Assembly: GCF_000156355.1 (NCBI RefSeq)
Contig: NZ_GG657897.1
Span: 164,659 to 228,658, forward strand
Length of the DNA stretch: 64,000 nt
Reading direction: 5' to 3'
From: Methylophaga thiooxydans DMS010
GTDB lineage: Bacteria > Pseudomonadota > Gammaproteobacteria > Nitrosococcales > Methylophagaceae
The position numbers and the translations under genes were made by a program. Under the pieces are notes generated by a model that was not told the DNA's origin, ran no database searches, and saw only the letters and a list, made by a program, of their open reading frames with translations. The number at the start of each line of letters is the position of its first letter. Within the stretch, counting starts at the first letter, position 1. Shown here piece by piece: positions 38,041-62,980 of this stretch.

Positions 38041-41611
<3,571 letters not shown>

Positions 41612-43011: not shown

Positions 43012-43625
43012 AAGTCCCTGAGCGCAAAAAACTGCTGCTGAAGGGTAAATGACGTAAACGGCGGTTTAAAACGCGCATAGACGCGCCCCTTGGGATCGAC
43101 CAGAAAAATATCGTGCTGCTGCTCGATTTGGTAACCCTGTTTGAACTGGGTACGCAAAAACAGAAACCCAAACGCCTTCATCACCGTATCTAGAATCTGC
43201 TTATCTCCCGTATATAAGGGCAGGGCAGGCTTAACTTGCTCTGTTTCATAAATAGACTGTTGATCATCGTAGTTTATCAATAAGAACTGAATATCAGCGG
43301 CGGCAAAAAACTGACTCAAATTATTTAGTACCGCCAAAACCGCTCCACATTCAGGCTGACAATGTGGATGCGTAAAATAAACAAATGACCAGCGTTGCTT
43401 AAATGACTGATTAGTAAGTACTTGCTTTCCTTTAGAGTTCAATAAAAACTGAGGAAGCTGCCGCGCAGGAGAAACCAAATGGGGTTTTAATGCGACGGGA
43501 ATATCACGTGTTTCGGGTTGTGTTATTTGGAGTCTGGAAACCCAAAGCAACAGCATTATCACGATGACAAGAAGATATAACAGTAAAAAACCCTTAGAAT
43601 TAACTTTTTTCGACGGCTTAAACAT
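42993..43625 (-). CDS. SCO1/SenC-family copper/redox protein
   Basis: About 210 aa with one N-terminal membrane helix (FLLLYLLVIVIMLLLW, residues 13-28) and a periplasmic thioredoxin-like fold. The copper site is C89-x3-C93 (HCQPEC) plus His171 in QQHDIFLVDPKG, as in SCO proteins that help build the CuA centre of cytochrome oxidase. Start ATG 43625 is preferred over a TTG at 43649, which lies closer to the divergent murJ. No oxidase genes lie nearby. A thiol-oxidoreductase role is the alternative. Confidence 0.84.
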   Translation of the reverse strand: MFKPSKKVNSKGFLLLYLLVIVIMLLLWVSRLQITQPETRDIPVALKPHLVSPARQLPQFLLNSKGKQVLTNQSFKQRWSFVYFTHPHCQPECGAVLAVLNNLSQFFAAADIQFLLINYDDQQSIYETEQVKPALPLYTGDKQILDTVMKAFGFLFLRTQFKQGYQIEQQHDIFLVDPKGRVYARFKPPFTSFTLQQQFFALRDFYARSE

Positions 43626-52591: not shown

Positions 52592-52825
52592 ATGACAATC
52601 AAACAACACCTGATTGATGAAATTGAAGTATTACTGCAATTCCCTTTGGATAGTACGCAAGCTGGTATCAAAATTCACAATACCGCTAAAGAAGGCCTGA
52701 TTAATGCAGCACAAAACTTATTTGAAAAAGGGTTAATCACCCAACATGATGGTGGCTATCTGACCGATTTAGGTTATGAAGCGGCTGAGCACCTACAGCA
52801 TGCGCTGAGGATCATTACTTCCTAA
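52592..52825 (+). CDS. TIGR02647-family small protein
   Basis: 77 aa. The sequence (LLQFPLDSTQAGIKIH, NLFEKGLITQHDGGYLTDLG, AAEHLQ) matches my memory of the conserved TIGR02647 proteins of Pseudomonas and relatives, which look like winged-helix or MarR-like fragments of unknown role. Complete, with its end overlapping the convergent folA by 11 bp. Confidence 0.85.
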   Translation: MTIKQHLIDEIEVLLQFPLDSTQAGIKIHNTAKEGLINAAQNLFEKGLITQHDGGYLTDLGYEAAEHLQHALRIITS

Positions 52826-53306
52826 TTCGCTGATAACACTGAAAGCTGTAATCAAACTCATTGTTTTCATCTGCCTGATGGTCTTCAGAACTGATTAACA
52901 TCCAGTCCTGCTCAGACCATTCAGGAAACCAGGTATCCCCCGTCAAACTGGCATGCACCCGTGTCAGGTAAAGCGTATCTGCTAGCGGTAATAGTTGCTG
53001 ATATAGCGATGCACCGCCCATTACCATCATTTCTTCGGCATCACTGCATAAAGCCATCGCAGCTTCTATTGAATTGACCACCTCACAGCCGTCAGCCTGA
53101 TAATCCTGTTGTTTGGTCAACACGATATTTTGTCGTCCAGGTAAAGGCCTGCCTATCGATTCATGGGTACTTCTTCCCATTATGATGGGTTTCCCCATTG
53201 TGGTGCGACGAAAGTACTGCAAGTCAGCAGAAAGCTTCCACGGAAGATCATTCTCTCGTCCGATTAAACGTTGCTCATCCATTGCCACAATAATTGCTAT
53301 AGCCAT
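52815..53306 (-). CDS. folA: Dihydrofolate reductase
   Basis: About 163 aa. IIVAMDEQRLIGRENDLPW is the N-terminal core with the substrate-loop Trp, then YFRRTTMGKPIIMGRSTHESIGRPLPGR, and EMMVMGGASLYQQLLPLADTLYLTR with the NADPH Gly-Gly. The start is ATG 53306 or 53318 (three residues of difference to the family start each way); a weak GAGAG favours 53306. Makes tetrahydrofolate. It flanks the candidate origin on the left. Confidence 0.95.
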   Translation of the reverse strand: MAIAIIVAMDEQRLIGRENDLPWKLSADLQYFRRTTMGKPIIMGRSTHESIGRPLPGRQNIVLTKQQDYQADGCEVVNSIEAAMALCSDAEEMMVMGGASLYQQLLPLADTLYLTRVHASLTGDTWFPEWSEQDWMLISSEDHQADENNEFDYSFQCYQRIRK

Positions 53307-53383
53307 ACTAACTCTCATCTAAAAATACCTGCCAAGGATACCGTAAATAGGCAGCATAATAAGTCTTGTATAAATGCCCAATA

Positions 53384-53592
53384 AGATCGATCACAAGCTG
53401 TGGATAACTTTACCTGTGGATAAGTCGCATTTTTATCCACAAGAGATCCATTCCGCACGATCAAAGTTATCAACAAGCTAAGATCAAGTTAAGATACTGA
53501 ATTGACACGCTTAAACAGATCTATTCAACAATCCACAGGCATTAAACATTAACATCACTAAAAAAATATCTTTCTTTCTTTATGTTTAATTA
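53384..53592. other. oriC: Candidate chromosomal origin of replication (oriC)
   Basis: Between folA and priA stand three perfect DnaA boxes TTATCCACA: 53399-53407 (minus), 53415-53423 (minus) and 53433-53441 (plus). There is also TTATCAACA at 53467-53475 with one mismatch and a weaker one near 53529-53537. Six GATC sites fall in 137 bp (53385, 53389, 53445, 53459, 53482, 53518), far above chance. The right side (53541-53592) is AT-rich with TTT/AAA runs and could be the unwinding element. Box spacing, Dam-site density and AT block match gammaproteobacterial oriC. No dnaA gene is in view, so it could instead be a DnaA-titrating region. Confidence 0.75.
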
Positions 53593-55776
53593 ATGACTAG
53601 CATTCTTCAAATCGCCGTTCCTTGTCCACTGAGACAATTATTTGATTACCTTTCTGAGGAACCAGAAAATCATTGGCAAGCAGGAATGCGAGTTAGGATT
53701 AATTTCGCAAACCGTTCTTGTATTGGCATCGTCATAAAAGCTCGTGACGTAACAAACGATATCGATACAAGGAAATTAAAAGCTATTGATGAAAAGCTCG
53801 ACGACCAGGCATTAATACCTGAAGAAATCCTTCAAACAGTGTTATGGGTTAGCCGTTATTATCATCACCCTCTCGGAGAATGCTTCCAGGCAGCCCTACC
53901 AAAACAACTTAGAAAGGGTGAAACGAGTGATTTACAGCTAGAAAACTGGTGGTTTAAAACCGATCAGCAAAGCAATAAGAAATTAGGAACAAAGCAGCAA
54001 GCCTGTATCGACTTTTTAAACGATTACCCTGATGGGATTAGTCAGGCTGCAATGAAAGCCCATTTAGGCACTGTTCTCTCATCGTTAAAAGCGCTCGAAC
54101 AAAAAAATCTAGTCAAACAAGAACCCTTTCCCAAACTGCCCATTGCTCAGGTTGAACTCAGTGTTCCATTTGAGCTGAATAATAAACAAAAAACTGTGAT
54201 TGAAGCGGTGTGGCAAAAAAAAGCCCAATTCCAACCGTTTTTGCTAGAAGGTATTACCGGAAGTGGTAAAACCGAGGTCTATACTGAGCTCACAGAAAAG
54301 ATCATCGCGGAAGGAAAGCAGGTCTTAATTCTAATTCCTGAAATCGGTTTAACCGGGCAATTCGTTGACCGTTTCAAGAAACGCTTAAATACCAATATTG
54401 TAGTGTTGAACTCTGCAGTATCCGATGGTGATCGCAAGCAAGGCTGGCTATTAGCGAAACGCGGATTGGCAAAAGTCATTATCGGAACGCGATCTGCAGT
54501 CTTTACACCCTTGCCCGATGCAGGCCTCATCATCATTGATGAAGAACATGACGCTTCCTACAAACAGCAAGATGGTTTGAAATACCACGCCCGTAATGTC
54601 GCCTTAATCCGTGCTCAAAAAAGAGGGATCCCAGTATTAATGGGCAGTGCGACCCCTTCCTTGGAAAGTTTGTACCAAGTCGAACAACAACGTTATCAAT
54701 TACTGCAACTGAAGCAGCGTGCAGGTGGCGCAGCATTACCTAAAGTACAGCTAATCGACAGTAATGCTGCACATCCTGATCATGGCTTAAGTCAGTTATT
54801 GCTAAAAAACATGCATCAGCATTTGAATGCCGGCAATCAAGTTATTTTATTTATCAATCGCCGCGGCTATGCGCCAGTATTGATGTGTCATGACTGTGGT
54901 TGGCAAGCGAAGTGTCAGCATTGTGATGCCAGAATGGTCGTGCACCAGCAACGCAACATCCTGTTTTGTCATCACTGTGGTTTTATACAACGGTTGCTTG
55001 AAGCATGCCCTGAGTGTGAGTCTAAACAACTTAAAAGCTATGGCGCCGGTACCGAAAAAATAGAACAGGTTTTACAAAAACTCTTTCCTGACACAGCTGT
55101 GGTCAGGGTGGATCGGGATACCACGCAACGGGTGAATGCCTTTAACGATATCGTTGCAGACATCAAACAGGGGCAGGCTAGAATTTTGGTAGGCACACAA
55201 ATGCTGGCCAAAGGTCATGATTTTCATGATGTGACCTTAGTTGGTGTTTTAGATACGGATCAAGGCTTATACAGTGCTGATTTTCGTGCAACCGAGAATT
55301 TGGCACAAATGATCACCCAAGTGACGGGTCGAGCAGGGCGAGGAGATAAAAAAGGGGAGGTGATAATACAAAGTCAGCAACCTCAGCATCCTTTCTGGGA
55401 AAGTTTAATCCAACAGGGCTATAAAAAAACCGCACAGGATTTATTGCAAGAGCGTATTGATATGGCAATGCCCCCGGTTTCTAACTGGGCTGTGATTCGT
55501 GCTGAAGCGCAAGAACGCCATCAGGCCATGGATTTTCTACAAGCCGTCACCAGTATTTTGCACTCGACACAACAACAGCACGTTTTAATTCTCGGTCCAG
55601 TACCCGCAATTATGGAAAAAAAGGGAGGCCGTTTCCGCGCTCAACTTTTACTGACTTGCCAACAACGCAAACCCTTACATCAATTACTTGATCAACATAT
55701 TCAGGCAATTGGCAGTCATAAACTGGCACGGAAACTCAGGTGGTCAATTGATATCGATCCGATGGATCTACTCTGA
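53593..55776 (+). CDS. priA: Primosomal protein PriA (replication restart helicase)
   Basis: 727 aa, normal length. An N-terminal 3'-DNA-binding domain (about 1-105) and a winged helix are followed by helicase lobes with GITGSGKTEVYTEL (Walker A, about 220), IIDEEHDASYKQ (DEEH), GSATPSLES and VTGRAGRGDKKGEV. Between lobes the zinc-binding CHDCGW, CQHCDA, CHHCGF and CPEC pairs are intact. It restarts stalled forks and loads DnaB. Its start codon is right at the edge of the candidate origin. Confidence 0.98.
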   Translation: MTSILQIAVPCPLRQLFDYLSEEPENHWQAGMRVRINFANRSCIGIVIKARDVTNDIDTRKLKAIDEKLDDQALIPEEILQTVLWVSRYYHHPLGECFQAALPKQLRKGETSDLQLENWWFKTDQQSNKKLGTKQQACIDFLNDYPDGISQAAMKAHLGTVLSSLKALEQKNLVKQEPFPKLPIAQVELSVPFELNNKQKTVIEAVWQKKAQFQPFLLEGITGSGKTEVYTELTEKIIAEGKQVLILIPEIGLTGQFVDRFKKRLNTNIVVLNSAVSDGDRKQGWLLAKRGLAKVIIGTRSAVFTPLPDAGLIIIDEEHDASYKQQDGLKYHARNVALIRAQKRGIPVLMGSATPSLESLYQVEQQRYQLLQLKQRAGGAALPKVQLIDSNAAHPDHGLSQLLLKNMHQHLNAGNQVILFINRRGYAPVLMCHDCGWQAKCQHCDARMVVHQQRNILFCHHCGFIQRLLEACPECESKQLKSYGAGTEKIEQVLQKLFPDTAVVRVDRDTTQRVNAFNDIVADIKQGQARILVGTQMLAKGHDFHDVTLVGVLDTDQGLYSADFRATENLAQMITQVTGRAGRGDKKGEVIIQSQQPQHPFWESLIQQGYKKTAQDLLQERIDMAMPPVSNWAVIRAEAQERHQAMDFLQAVTSILHSTQQQHVLILGPVPAIMEKKGGRFRAQLLLTCQQRKPLHQLLDQHIQAIGSHKLARKLRWSIDIDPMDLL

Positions 55777-58214: not shown

Positions 58215-58311
58215 TGCCCTAGCAAAGAAAAGCGCGACACCTCTGCTATTGCTTGCAATACTGGCCTGCTGATTCAATTTTTATGATTATTATTTGATTG
58301 AGGACACCGAT

Positions 58312-59586
58312 ATGACGGAAAACACTGAAGCAGGCATCTTTCGTGATGTTGCCAGTCCTTTCTGCGGTATTGCATCTGATGATCTGGTGGTGCAGGTTGA
58401 GGGTAATACGGTCACGGTGAAAGAAAACGGCGATGCAGTTACCAAACCTGGGTTTGAAACGCCGATTACGGATCTTTCACCGCGCGTAAAAGGGCAGGAA
58501 GTCTCGCTGGATAAGGCGGTAAATCATATTGCTAGTTTGTTGAAAAACAGCAAACAGCCGTTAATCGGTGGTATGGGAACCGACTTAAATGGTGCCAGAG
58601 CAGCAATGGCATTAGCGGATATCAGTCGCGCCACTGTTGATAGTCAGTTTTCTGATGCCGCATTCAGAAATATTCTGGTGTTGCAGGACAGCGGCTACAT
58701 GACAACAACACTAACGGAAGTCAGAAACCGGGTTGATGTGTTGCTGGTTGTCGGTACTGACATCGAATCCTCTTTTCCGCGTTTTTTCGAGCGCATAGTG
58801 TGGCCAAAGGAAAGTATGTTTGGCCAGGAAATTGAATCGCGGGAAATTATTTATCTGGGCAAAAAGCCTTCAGGCGAAGCTTCAACCACACCCGGTGGCC
58901 GTAAAGCAGAAGTGCTGGAATGTGATGATGCGGATCTACCAGAAGTCATCTCAGTATTACGGGCATTAGTGAAAGGCAAAAAGGTACAGTCAGAAACCGT
59001 AGGGGGTATTGCCGCCGCTGACTTGGCTGCCATTGCTGAAAAATTAAATGCAGCAAAATACTCAGTAATCAGTTGGTCTGGTACGCAATTGAATATTGAT
59101 CATGCAGAAGTGACGATTCAAAACATCTGCGAGATGATTAAAGAAATTAATAACACCACACGTTGTAATGGCTTACCGTTAGGTGGAAAAGAGGGTGATA
59201 CCACCGTCAATGCGGTGTCGTCATGGCAGTCAGGTTATCCGATGCGAACCAGCTTCAGCCGTAATATGCCGGATTACGACCCGTTTGTGAATCGCGGTCA
59301 GCGCATGTTGGATGATGGTGAGGTCGATGTGTTGTTATGGATATCCAGTTTCAATACACAAACCACACCACCGCCAAGCAATGCGGCCACGGTGGTTTTA
59401 GGTCGCTCAGGCATGACCTTCGAGAATGAACCGGAAGTGTTTATTCCTGTTGGTGTTCCCGGTATTGACCATGAAGGACGCACATTCCGTTGCGACAGTG
59501 TGGTATCTCTGCCATTGACGAAATTACGTGACAGCGGCTTGCCCAGCACTTATGACGTGCTGACAGCTGTTGAACAAGCCCTGTAA
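58312..59586 (+). CDS. fhcB: Formyltransferase/hydrolase complex subunit FhcB (formylmethanofuran dehydrogenase B-like)
   Basis: 424 aa. Related to the molybdenum/tungsten-containing catalytic subunit of methanogen formylmethanofuran dehydrogenase but lacking the metal-cofactor cysteines in methylotrophs, so probably structural. Typical pieces are SPFCGIASDDLVVQ at the start, PLIGGMGTDLNGARAA and the C-terminal RTFRCDSVVSLPL region. Start ATG 58312 has TGAGGA 8 nt upstream. First gene of fhcBADC, which converts formyl-H4MPT to formate. Confidence 0.94.
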   Translation: MTENTEAGIFRDVASPFCGIASDDLVVQVEGNTVTVKENGDAVTKPGFETPITDLSPRVKGQEVSLDKAVNHIASLLKNSKQPLIGGMGTDLNGARAAMALADISRATVDSQFSDAAFRNILVLQDSGYMTTTLTEVRNRVDVLLVVGTDIESSFPRFFERIVWPKESMFGQEIESREIIYLGKKPSGEASTTPGGRKAEVLECDDADLPEVISVLRALVKGKKVQSETVGGIAAADLAAIAEKLNAAKYSVISWSGTQLNIDHAEVTIQNICEMIKEINNTTRCNGLPLGGKEGDTTVNAVSSWQSGYPMRTSFSRNMPDYDPFVNRGQRMLDDGEVDVLLWISSFNTQTTPPPSNAATVVLGRSGMTFENEPEVFIPVGVPGIDHEGRTFRCDSVVSLPLTKLRDSGLPSTYDVLTAVEQAL

Positions 59587-59598
59587 ACGGAGACTGAA

Positions 59599-61266
59599 AT
59601 GCTTAAAAAACTCACTGGTGGACGCATCTTCGATCCCGAGCATGGGCTCAATGATGTTGTTGGTGATATCTACATCCGAGACGGTCGAATTGTCGATGCA
59701 CCGACCGATGGCAAAATTGATGAAGAAATCGATGTGCGCGGCAAAGTCATTATGTCTGGTGCTATCGATATGCACACTCATATCGGCGGTGGTAAGGTTA
59801 ATATCGCCCGTACCATGTTGCCAGAAGATCATGCTGAAGCCTTGATTGAACGCACGGAGTTAATGCGGAGTGGTTGCGGCCATGCTGCACCGAGTACCTT
59901 AACGACGGGGTATCGCTACGCAGAGATGGGGTATACCGCAGGCTTTGAACCGGCAGTATTACCGGTCAATGCACGTCAGGCACATATGGAAATGCATGAC
60001 ACGCCGATCATCGATAAAGGTGGATATGCCATGCTGGGCAGTGATGATTTTCTGCTTAGGATGATGGCGGCCAATGAAGATCAGGAAGCGATTAACAACT
60101 ACGTAGCCTGGACCATGACGCATAGTCAGGCAATAGGTCTGAAAGTGGTTAACCCGGGTGGTATTAACGCGTTTAAATTCAATCAGCGTCAATTGGATTT
60201 AGATGAAAAAAACAGTTTTTATAACGTTTCACCCCGCGAAATTCTGCAACGTTTATCGCGTGCGGTAACCGAACTCGGTGTGCCACATCCTTTGCATGTA
60301 CATGGTTGTAACTTAGGTGTACCGGGTAATAAAGACACGACCTTAGATACCATTCAAGGTATTGAAGGTTTGCCAATGCATTTAACCCATATTCAGTTCC
60401 ATAGCTATGGCACCGAAGGTGATTTCAAGTTTTCATCGGGTGCGGCTGAAATTGCAGAATCGATTAACCGTAATAAAAACATCACGGTAGACGTTGGTCA
60501 GATCCTGTTTGGGCAAACAGTCACAGCATCAGGCGATAATATGCGCCAGTTTGCTGGCGCGCCGCATGCTCATCCAAACAAGTGGGTGTGTATGGATATT
60601 GAGTGTGATGCCGGTTGTGGTGTGGTGCCGTTCAAATACAAAGATCAAAGCTTTGTAAATGCCTTGCAGTGGATGATTGGTCTGGAAACTTTCCTGATGG
60701 TAGATGATCCATGGCGGATATTCCTGACCACGGATCACCCGAACGGTGCACCATTCACCAGTTATCCACATCTGATTAAGTTGTTGATGGATAAATCATT
60801 CCGTAACGACATGTTATCAACCTTGCACCCTGAAGCGCAGAACGCAACACATCTGGCGTCTATGGATCGTGAATATTCTTTGTATGACATTGCGATTATG
60901 ACCCGTGCCGGTGCTGCCAAGCTGGTGGGGCTGGCAGATCGTGGTCACTTAGGCGTGGGCGCGGCGGCGGATATCACGGTATATACCGATGATACTGACC
61001 GCGAAAAAATGTTCAGTAAACCAGACTATGTCTTCAAAGATGGTGAGATGGTTGTCAGAAATGGTGAGATAGTCAAAGTGACGTGGGGCACCACGCATGT
61101 GGTGAAACCAGAATACGATGCCAGTATTGAAAAACCACTTAAAGCTTATTTTGACCAGTACCACACAATGAAAATGGGTAACTTCAAAATCAGTGATGAT
61201 GAAATTGTGGATGATGGTCGTGGTAGTTTGACCATACAGCCGTTGAAGCAAGGAGGCAGACTATGA
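59599..61266 (+). CDS. fhcA: Formyltransferase/hydrolase complex subunit FhcA (amidohydrolase)
   Basis: 555 aa. Amidohydrolase-fold subunit that hydrolyses formylmethanofuran to formate in the Fhc complex. Metal motif IDMHTHIGGGK near residue 55; HVHGCNLGVPGN, HLTHIQFHSYG and the TTDHPNGAPFTSYP block carry the other His and Asp ligands. It starts 12 nt after fhcB and overlaps fhcD by 4 nt. It resembles FwdA/FmdA of methanogens. Confidence 0.96.
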   Translation: MLKKLTGGRIFDPEHGLNDVVGDIYIRDGRIVDAPTDGKIDEEIDVRGKVIMSGAIDMHTHIGGGKVNIARTMLPEDHAEALIERTELMRSGCGHAAPSTLTTGYRYAEMGYTAGFEPAVLPVNARQAHMEMHDTPIIDKGGYAMLGSDDFLLRMMAANEDQEAINNYVAWTMTHSQAIGLKVVNPGGINAFKFNQRQLDLDEKNSFYNVSPREILQRLSRAVTELGVPHPLHVHGCNLGVPGNKDTTLDTIQGIEGLPMHLTHIQFHSYGTEGDFKFSSGAAEIAESINRNKNITVDVGQILFGQTVTASGDNMRQFAGAPHAHPNKWVCMDIECDAGCGVVPFKYKDQSFVNALQWMIGLETFLMVDDPWRIFLTTDHPNGAPFTSYPHLIKLLMDKSFRNDMLSTLHPEAQNATHLASMDREYSLYDIAIMTRAGAAKLVGLADRGHLGVGAAADITVYTDDTDREKMFSKPDYVFKDGEMVVRNGEIVKVTWGTTHVVKPEYDASIEKPLKAYFDQYHTMKMGNFKISDDEIVDDGRGSLTIQPLKQGGRL

Positions 61267-62168
61267 TCATCAACGGCGTCACAATAGACGCAACATTTGC
61301 CGAAGCCTTTCCAATGCGTGGTACTCGCGTCATTATTACCGCACAAAATCTTGAATGGGCAATGAACTCGGCAACGGCCTTTACAGGGTTTGCGACATCG
61401 GTTATCGCTTGTGGTTGTGAAGCCTCAATTGAGCGCACTTTAGAACCCCATGAAACGCCGGATGGTCGTCCCGGTGTGGCTTGTCTTATTTTTGCAATGG
61501 GTGGTAAGGGTTTAGCCAAACAGGTTGAAACCCGCGCTGGTCAGTGTGTGCTTACTTCGCCGACATCCGCCTTATTTTCTGGCCTGGAAATGGACCAAGA
61601 AGGAAAAGAGATTCCTTTAGGCAAGAACTTACGATTCTTTGGTGACGGTTATCAGATTTCTAAAATGATTGACGGTAAACGCTACTGGCGTATTCCCGTC
61701 ATGGACGGTGAGTTTTTAACTCAAGAAAATACCGGTATGCGTGCCTCCGTAGGTGGTGGTAATTTTCTGATTCTGGCTGAGTCTCAGCCACAAGCGTTGG
61801 CAGCCTGTGAAGCCGCTATTCGTGAGATGAAGAAGATCCCTAATGTGATTATGCCGTTCCCGGGTGGTGTGGTTCGTTCAGGTTCTAAGGTGGGGTCTAA
61901 ATACAAAGCTTTGAATGCTTCAACCAATGATGCTTTCTGTCCAACCCTGAAAGGGCAGACCAAAACAGAGCTTTCGCCAGAGGTGGAATCAGTGATGGAA
62001 ATCGTCATTGATGGCCTCACCGAAGACGACATCAACAAAGCGATGAGAGTAGGGATTCAGGCTGCTTGTGAATTAGGCGCTGAAAACGGCATAAAACGCA
62101 TCAGTGCAGGTAACTACGGCGGCAAACTTGGTCCATTCCACTTCCATTTGCAGGAGATCATGGCATGA
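61263..62168 (+). CDS. fhcD: Formylmethanofuran:H4MPT formyltransferase FhcD
   Basis: 301 aa Ftr protein. It moves the formyl group from formyl-H4MPT to methanofuran. INGVTIDATFAEAFPMRGTR at the N-terminus, VIACGCEASIER and PFPGGVVRSGSKVGSKYK are the family's strongly conserved blocks. Overlaps fhcA and fhcC by 4 nt each, so the operon is tightly coupled. Confidence 0.97.
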   Translation: MIINGVTIDATFAEAFPMRGTRVIITAQNLEWAMNSATAFTGFATSVIACGCEASIERTLEPHETPDGRPGVACLIFAMGGKGLAKQVETRAGQCVLTSPTSALFSGLEMDQEGKEIPLGKNLRFFGDGYQISKMIDGKRYWRIPVMDGEFLTQENTGMRASVGGGNFLILAESQPQALAACEAAIREMKKIPNVIMPFPGGVVRSGSKVGSKYKALNASTNDAFCPTLKGQTKTELSPEVESVMEIVIDGLTEDDINKAMRVGIQAACELGAENGIKRISAGNYGGKLGPFHFHLQEIMA

Positions 62169-62980
62169 GTGCATTAACATTCACCCTGAAAAATCCACCT
62201 GCGCAACGGATTGATTGTGCAGCGCTGACGGCCGATAAGCTAGTGGATAAATCGGTTGATGAGATTGCTGCTTTGACCTTAGTGGTTGGTAATCAGAAAG
62301 TCAGAGTTGATGAGTTATTTGATATCTCAGGCACGGATATAGCCAAAATCTGCTTCGAAAACAGTACGGATAAGCTGGACCATATTGGTCATGGCATGTC
62401 GACCGGTAGTATTACAGTAAATGGCGATGCAGGTGCGTATCTTGGCCAGTTTATGACGCATGGTGAAATAGCGGTTAATGGTAATACGGGTATTTATACC
62501 GCGTGCGAAATGAAAGGCGGTCAGATCAAAGTTGACGGTAATGCCGGAGACTTTGTTGGTGGCGCTCGTATTGGTTATAAAAACGGCATGACAGGCGGCA
62601 CCGTCATTATCACCGGTAATAGCGGTGAACGTACCGGTGATCATATGCGTCGCGGCATGATCCTGATTGAAGGCAATGCGGGTAATTACTGTGGTTCACG
62701 GATGGTGTCGGGCACGATTGCTGTTTTAGGCCAGGTCGGACAACATCTTGGTTATGCGATGAAACGTGGTACTTTGCTACTCACGCAAGCACCACAACAC
62801 GGTTTATCAGCCAATTTTAATGACTGTGGTTCACACACACTGGCCTTTTTACCGTTGATGATTGCTTCATTCAAAAAGCTGGATAGTCAGTTTGCTACGC
62901 TCGAGCCATTTTCTCGCGTTCAACGTTATGCGGGTGATATTTCCGGTATCGGTATGGGCGAAATTCTGGTTAAAATTTGA
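62165..62980 (+). CDS. fhcC: Formyltransferase/hydrolase complex subunit FhcC
   Basis: 271 aa. It has a right-handed beta-helix of glutamate-synthase alpha C-terminal type with repeated G-N-x-G units (VNGDAGAYLGQFM, VNGNTGIYTACEM, VDGNAGDFVGGARI, IEGNAGNYCGSRM). Related to FwdC/FmdC. It binds the methanofuran chain and completes the complex. Last gene of the fhc operon. Confidence 0.96.
   Translation: MSALTFTLKNPPAQRIDCAALTADKLVDKSVDEIAALTLVVGNQKVRVDELFDISGTDIAKICFENSTDKLDHIGHGMSTGSITVNGDAGAYLGQFMTHGEIAVNGNTGIYTACEMKGGQIKVDGNAGDFVGGARIGYKNGMTGGTVIITGNSGERTGDHMRRGMILIEGNAGNYCGSRMVSGTIAVLGQVGQHLGYAMKRGTLLLTQAPQHGLSANFNDCGSHTLAFLPLMIASFKKLDSQFATLEPFSRVQRYAGDISGIGMGEILVKI

Follow-up and report, generated by a model that had tools for sequence, protein, structure and literature searches.

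Bacterial replication origins (oriC) are commonly sought beside the initiator gene dnaA. Section 4 of PMC4285127 describes origins lying away from dnaA in Escherichia coli and other bacteria, and the part of PMC5859110 devoted to the predicted oriC of Francisella places priA among the marker genes near it. According to a rule quoted in a passage of PMC7561715, an oriC holds at least three DnaA boxes at an average spacing below 100 bp; for BUS-type origins, the corresponding passage of PMC8287927 asks for at least three DnaA-trios within 16 bp of a box.

Here, we analysed a 64,000-nucleotide stretch (hereafter the window; G000:C11:164659-228658) from the genome of a Methylophaga-like bacterium, a draft of 26 contigs that is 94.7% complete. 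The 274-bp intergenic region between folA and priA (53319..53592) is very probably the oriC of this bacterium and of its family, parted there from dnaA-dnaN. Throughout the text, the names folA, priA, gyrB, recF and dnaA and those of the Mu genes are backed by family searches. Other names, such as his, tat, argS, fhc, spor, rnpA, yidC and dnaN, are putative and follow the general appearance of the sequences.

The folA-priA cassette and its conservation

The intergenic region is bordered on the left by the dihydrofolate reductase gene folA (52815..53318, minus strand; Pfam PF00186, DHFR_1) and on the right by priA (53593..55776, plus strand; PF17764 and PF18074). It carries a cassette of about 200 bp in which two boxes pointing leftward and three pointing rightward are followed by an AT-rich element and then by priA. 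A box search finds R1 (53399..53407, minus strand), R2 (53415..53423, minus strand, 16 bp from R1) and R3 (53433..53441, plus strand, 18 bp from R2) as exact copies of TTATCCACA. R4 (53467..53475, plus strand) reads TTATCAACA, with one mismatch, and the degenerate R5 (53529..53537, plus strand) reads CAATCCACA, with two; R5 is exact in some relatives and is oriented toward the AT-rich element. A TGTATAA block (53367..53373, plus strand) lies upstream of the first box. The region thus contains at least three intergenic boxes at an average spacing below 100 bp, as expected of an oriC.

The putative DNA unwinding element (53540..53592, plus strand) is AT-rich up to the priA ATG and includes a conserved CATTAACATCA block (53547-53557). 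AT content reaches 85% in the 40 bp from 53554, a level found in 27 of the 63,961 such segments of the window, and the least stable 80 bp on a nearest-neighbour calculation start at 53519, ranking 8th of 63,920. A low-stability element therefore adjoins the boxes, another oriC trait, its melting being a sequence-level prediction. Six GATC sites (53385, 53389, 53445, 53459, 53482 and 53518) span 53385..53521. A preliminary description of this DNA had listed the three perfect boxes, the near match R4, six GATC within 137 bp, the AT-rich flank and the two neighbouring genes, and every one of these items is recovered here at the same positions; R5 had escaped it.

Clusters of this kind are rare in the genome. 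The 3,047,652-base draft contains 30 exact boxes, and the folA-priA region is the only place with two of them within 1 kb; the window has a single further exact box, at 60762. Boxes with at most one mismatch number 32 in the window against a mean of 15.5 for shuffled sequences, none of 100 shuffles reaching 32, and under a first-order Markov estimate the expected number of exact triples spanning at most 43 bp in a 64-kb sequence is about 3e-8. No second box cluster, and hence no bipartite arrangement, was found within the 64-kb window, and a search for similarity to plasmids gave no match. To the right of priA, positions 58294-62980 hold genes that by appearance resemble a formylmethanofuran/formyltransferase-hydrolase set, fitting a methylotroph.

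To follow the cassette across relatives, the stretch before priA was aligned for 25 loci (24 genomes) and for 46 loci of the family, of which L195 entered incomplete and misparsed. Across the 46 loci, and with at most two mismatches, R3 occupies the same place in all, R4 lies at 67/68 from R1 in 44 and R5 at 128-130 from R1 in 41; the TGTATAA block is also kept. TAACATCA is invariant over the 25 loci (24 genomes) and more variable across the 46, and a CATTAACATCA-like block followed by an AT-rich run up to the priA start recurs in the aligned family loci. The exact triple, always 43 bp long, is present in 15 of 24 genomes of the genus, and the reversed pattern in none of the 24.

At family level, the exact R1-R2 core was detected in 49 of 57 genomes, adjoining folA and/or priA in all 49. 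As the pattern search itself selects the R1-R2 spacing, only G045 and G051 bear on that spacing independently; in these two, a core with one mismatch in R1 was located through PriA. The remaining six genomes (G011, G020, G026, G040, G053 and G054) have no readable priA 5' flank; G026 (1.1 Mb, listed as 100% complete) lacks an exact core pair and, at E 1e-30, any PriA match. In G056, the core adjoins folA (L293, G056:C43:1-3000), and no PriA was found there or genome-wide at E 1e-30. G024 (L237) carries an extra exact R2-R3-like pair about 480-500 bp before priA, upstream of a full cassette, which looks as if it were a partial duplication.

Outside the family, the exact core was found in none of six genomes of the order's other family. 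Among 369 genomes of the class, a sample that includes three family members without the exact triple (G018, G045 and G051), this triple occurs once, in the genome studied here; as it misses variants, its absence elsewhere concerns the exact form only. At 75 outside-family priA loci (L086-L160, among the matches listed, the best 80), folA was not found within up to 4 kb around priA, and an exact box lies within about 300 bp upstream of priA in two (L086 and L120).

The Dam-site argument of the preliminary description is weak. The six GATC are present and the genome has a Dam homologue, but the same stretch holds one to five GATC in relatives, and a density of six in 137 bp recurs once more in the window, from 16700. 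A SeqA search, positive for the E. coli control, found nothing in this genome, which is 94.7% complete; neither the conserved dense GATC nor the SeqA that would mark an E. coli-type oriC was thus found. Dam/SeqA sequestration of the E. coli type is not supported, given the varying GATC count and the missing SeqA, and is unlikely at the cassette because no SeqA was found, though a Dam homologue exists. A loose DnaA-trio pattern occurs at 24 of the 46 loci against a control mean of 31 of 46 after shuffling of the right side; strict CTA/TTA trios occur at none of the 46, but are also absent from all five loci of the other family.

A Dam-like methylase gene is found at 12 places in the genome and in seven cases lies at either of two set distances from the beginning of a contig, seemingly because several near-identical prophage copies exist. 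A Mu-like prophage of 37.8 kb, with Mu transposase and Mu portal genes, begins contig C10 (G000:C10:1-37769; L286, L287), and the same prophage begins C1 in reverse, judging by four 60-base probes and one end.

The dnaA locus, parS-like sites and GC skew

The cassette and dnaA are 74-216 kb apart in the nine genomes having both on one contig. At the 15 family dnaA loci, there is no box between dnaA and dnaN and no box cluster at dnaA; the better cluster beside dnaA that the preliminary description held against its own proposal is thus absent from them. The dnaA-dnaN gap measures 14-15 bp in seven of seven cases. In the genome studied here, dnaA begins a contig and its upstream region lies outside the data; rnpA and yidC adjoin it in G005, G007, G024 and G050, the stretches of G002 and G000 stopping short of there. 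In three genomes of the sister genus, g3 (G033, G031 and G047), one box lies 108-128 bp upstream of dnaA and may serve autoregulation rather than an origin.

The order's other family presents a different picture, with 5-9 boxes between dnaA and dnaN in five of five genomes. G058 shows the order dnaA, boxes, dnaN, recF, gyrB, with fhcB-spor-argS-priA at 19-26 kb. From its standard position, this dnaA-dnaN cluster is probably the origin of that family. As regards a possible homology of the cassette to this probable origin, all five contain TGTATAA, though it sits inside box-like repeats there, and all five lack the ACATCA block. The sixth genome, G057, gave no DnaA match. Its single 1.85-Mb contig (L291, L292) ends with rnpA-yidC and begins with dnaN-gyrB, and dnaA and recF are absent from their usual places, either through real loss or through loss at the record join.

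Unmentioned in the preliminary description, gyrB (38041..40464, minus strand; Pfam) and recF (40496..41611, minus strand; RecF/RecN/SMC N-terminal domain, Pfam) lie 12-15 kb to the left of the cassette; recF is separated from dnaA-dnaN in the family. Within recF are two parS-like sites about 630 bp apart, one with a single mismatch (40557..40572) and one exact (41190..41205). Pairs also occur in recF of G005, G002 and G050 and a single site in that of G007, so that all five genomes examined have them, at 12-17 kb from the cassette in four and at 39 kb in G050. In all five, recF-gyrB is on the folA side. With at most two mismatches, the examined stretches other than the window give 19 matches, not all of them near the origin, against 1-10 for 20 shuffled palindromes; G007 and G050 also have one exact site each at 41-55 kb in the opposite direction. 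The cassette therefore has parS-like sites nearby, as would an oriC.

GC skew on the contig of the window is negative to about 210 kb and positive after, with its minimum at 208,010 and the cassette at 218,057. This minimum corresponds to window position 43,352, 10 kb left of the cassette, and the rise from there to 53.4 kb is shallow (-1086 vs -990). Relatives were sampled in 20-kb pieces, the one straddling the cassette being set apart. In G005 (one contig, 3.11 Mb), seven of seven samples are negative to the left of the cassette and 12 of 12 positive to the right; dnaA, at 1.655 Mb, sits inside the positive arm with positive skew on both sides. In G007 (one contig, 3.14 Mb), eight of eight are negative to the left and seven of seven positive to the right, and from 1.80 Mb on four of four are negative, the sample at 1.80 Mb, just short of the antipode, standing at -0.007 and three of three beyond the antipode being negative as well; of these 19 samples, which exclude the straddling one, four deviate from zero by no more than 0.01. 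The dnaA gene of G007, at 0.16 Mb, belongs to the negative arm, with positive skew in the 140-150 kb stretch immediately preceding it; a local switch at that point would therefore be opposite in sign to that of an origin. G002, sampled over 0.7 Mb (1.6-2.3 Mb) leaving out a 6,000-base N stretch, has six of six negative and four of four positive samples, and its dnaA is flanked by negative skew to left and right. The switch in G050 falls somewhere from 530 to 570 kb, up to 40 kb recF-ward of the cassette at 528.7 kb.

The negative-to-positive switch characteristic of an oriC is thus present at a resolution of 10-40 kb. Given the 10-kb offset on the contig of the window and that of up to 40 kb in G050, skew resolves the origin no more finely than tens of kilobases; it supports the folA-priA locus at that scale, and the boxes give the exact place. 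Of the skew minimum near 53.4 kb that the preliminary description had named as support, the sign change at this locus and not at dnaA was borne out in closed relatives, but the minimum of the contig itself is displaced by 10 kb. An origin at dnaA was rejected for the lack of dnaA-dnaN boxes and of an origin-type skew change there. On this sequence comparison, origin and dnaA appear to have come apart in the family, through either a move of the origin or an exchange of the genes around it.

The origin reading and the doubled cassettes

The conserved cassette, the skew change in closed relatives and the missing box cluster at dnaA uphold the origin proposed by the preliminary description, and its alternative of a DnaA-controlled region is not needed. 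On the models for E. coli and Bacillus subtilis, DnaA would bind the strong core R1-R2-R3 and then oligomerise across the weaker boxes R4 and R5 in the direction of the AT-rich element (53540-53592), whose melting would allow DnaB to load. From the skew, replication would proceed bidirectionally from the cassette. During the separation, dnaA-dnaN would have closed to its short gap at its present distance, and recF-gyrB with its parS-like sites would have remained within about 40 kb of the origin.

The boxes stand directly before priA, where AT-rich sequence can be a promoter, and they might instead form a DnaA-controlled promoter or a datA-like DnaA-titration site for priA/folA, with the origin elsewhere; the 10-kb offset of the skew minimum fits this. 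Such a role without an origin is very unlikely: several relatives show the skew sign change and have parS-like sites close by, two exact boxes within 1 kb occur nowhere else in the genome studied here, the dnaA-dnaN gap is left without boxes, and G056, for which no PriA was found, keeps its core at folA.

It is still harder to credit that replication truly starts leftward, in the his/recF/parS stretch, with the cassette merely assisting. The window offers no box cluster elsewhere, and the skew minimum at 43,352, which would suit such a start together with the parS-like sites at 40.6-41.2 kb, falls among his-tat genes whose plus-strand orientation can by itself raise G over C. G050 speaks on both sides, as its skew changes on the recF side, yet its cassette remains at priA with recF some 39 kb away.

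Further to an origin at folA-priA, two exact cores are present in five of the 29 sister-genus genomes (G033, G034, G039, G043 and G047), and in all five the second cassette lies between priA and argS (L221-L225), giving in sequence the two clusters with a spacer gene that define a bipartite arrangement. Both copies retain the boxes, TGTATAA and the AT block, and seem from this to be maintained. The priA-argS interval of 12 other loci of this genus holds no cassette, three having one or two single-mismatch boxes. Copies of different genomes are generally 74-94% alike; between G047 and G039, likeness is 93% for copy 1 and 94% for copy 2, against 76-81% between copies, and this higher likeness within than between copies indicates that the doubling predates their split. 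We tentatively suggest that one lineage of the sister genus possesses a double origin, in which two complete cassettes, separated by about 2.5 kb, stand on either side of priA and have persisted through speciation. If so, the restart-helicase gene would either lie inside a bipartite origin or stand between two alternative start sites, and the family as a whole would illustrate the parting of an origin from its initiator gene. With their two cassettes, these genomes would also allow one to ask whether a second origin element is used.

Comparison with known origins

A DnaA-type oriC is of a known kind; for its folA-priA location we found no report. Among open-licence PMC papers, searched by title and abstract start, none on a Methylophaga origin or on an oriC at folA-priA was found; DoriC may list predicted Methylophaga origins. 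With this location, Methylophaga genomes acquire a proper zero point. The separation of origin and initiator can be located between two families of the same order, with dnaA-dnaN sealed to 14-15 bp, and is a clear case for asking whether oriC-dnaA linkage matters to copy control.

The predicted Francisella oriC, as the relevant part of PMC5859110 presents it, resembles the cassette in having priA near and differs in having dnaA near as well, the comparison being one of neighbouring genes. The five sister-genus genomes with two clusters flanking one gene recall the bipartite origins of B. subtilis and Helicobacter pylori, in the sections of PMC4285127 and PMC7561715 that treat them; their spacer gene is priA instead of dnaA, and both clusters have an AT-rich block of the same kind. 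Like the probable dnaA-dnaN origin of the order's other family (G058-G062), the cassette has two opposed box groups and then sequence running to a gene start, but that origin keeps its boxes at dnaA-dnaN, where the present family has none, its cassette being at folA-priA. With E. coli oriC (mnmG/gidA-mioC), the cassette shares the position in one intergenic region away from dnaA and, as in the K-12 origin, a box next to the AT-rich element that points at it, with the farthest box pointing away. It differs from E. coli oriC in its folA-priA neighbours, in the number and spacing of its boxes and in a GATC number that is not conserved, with no SeqA found.
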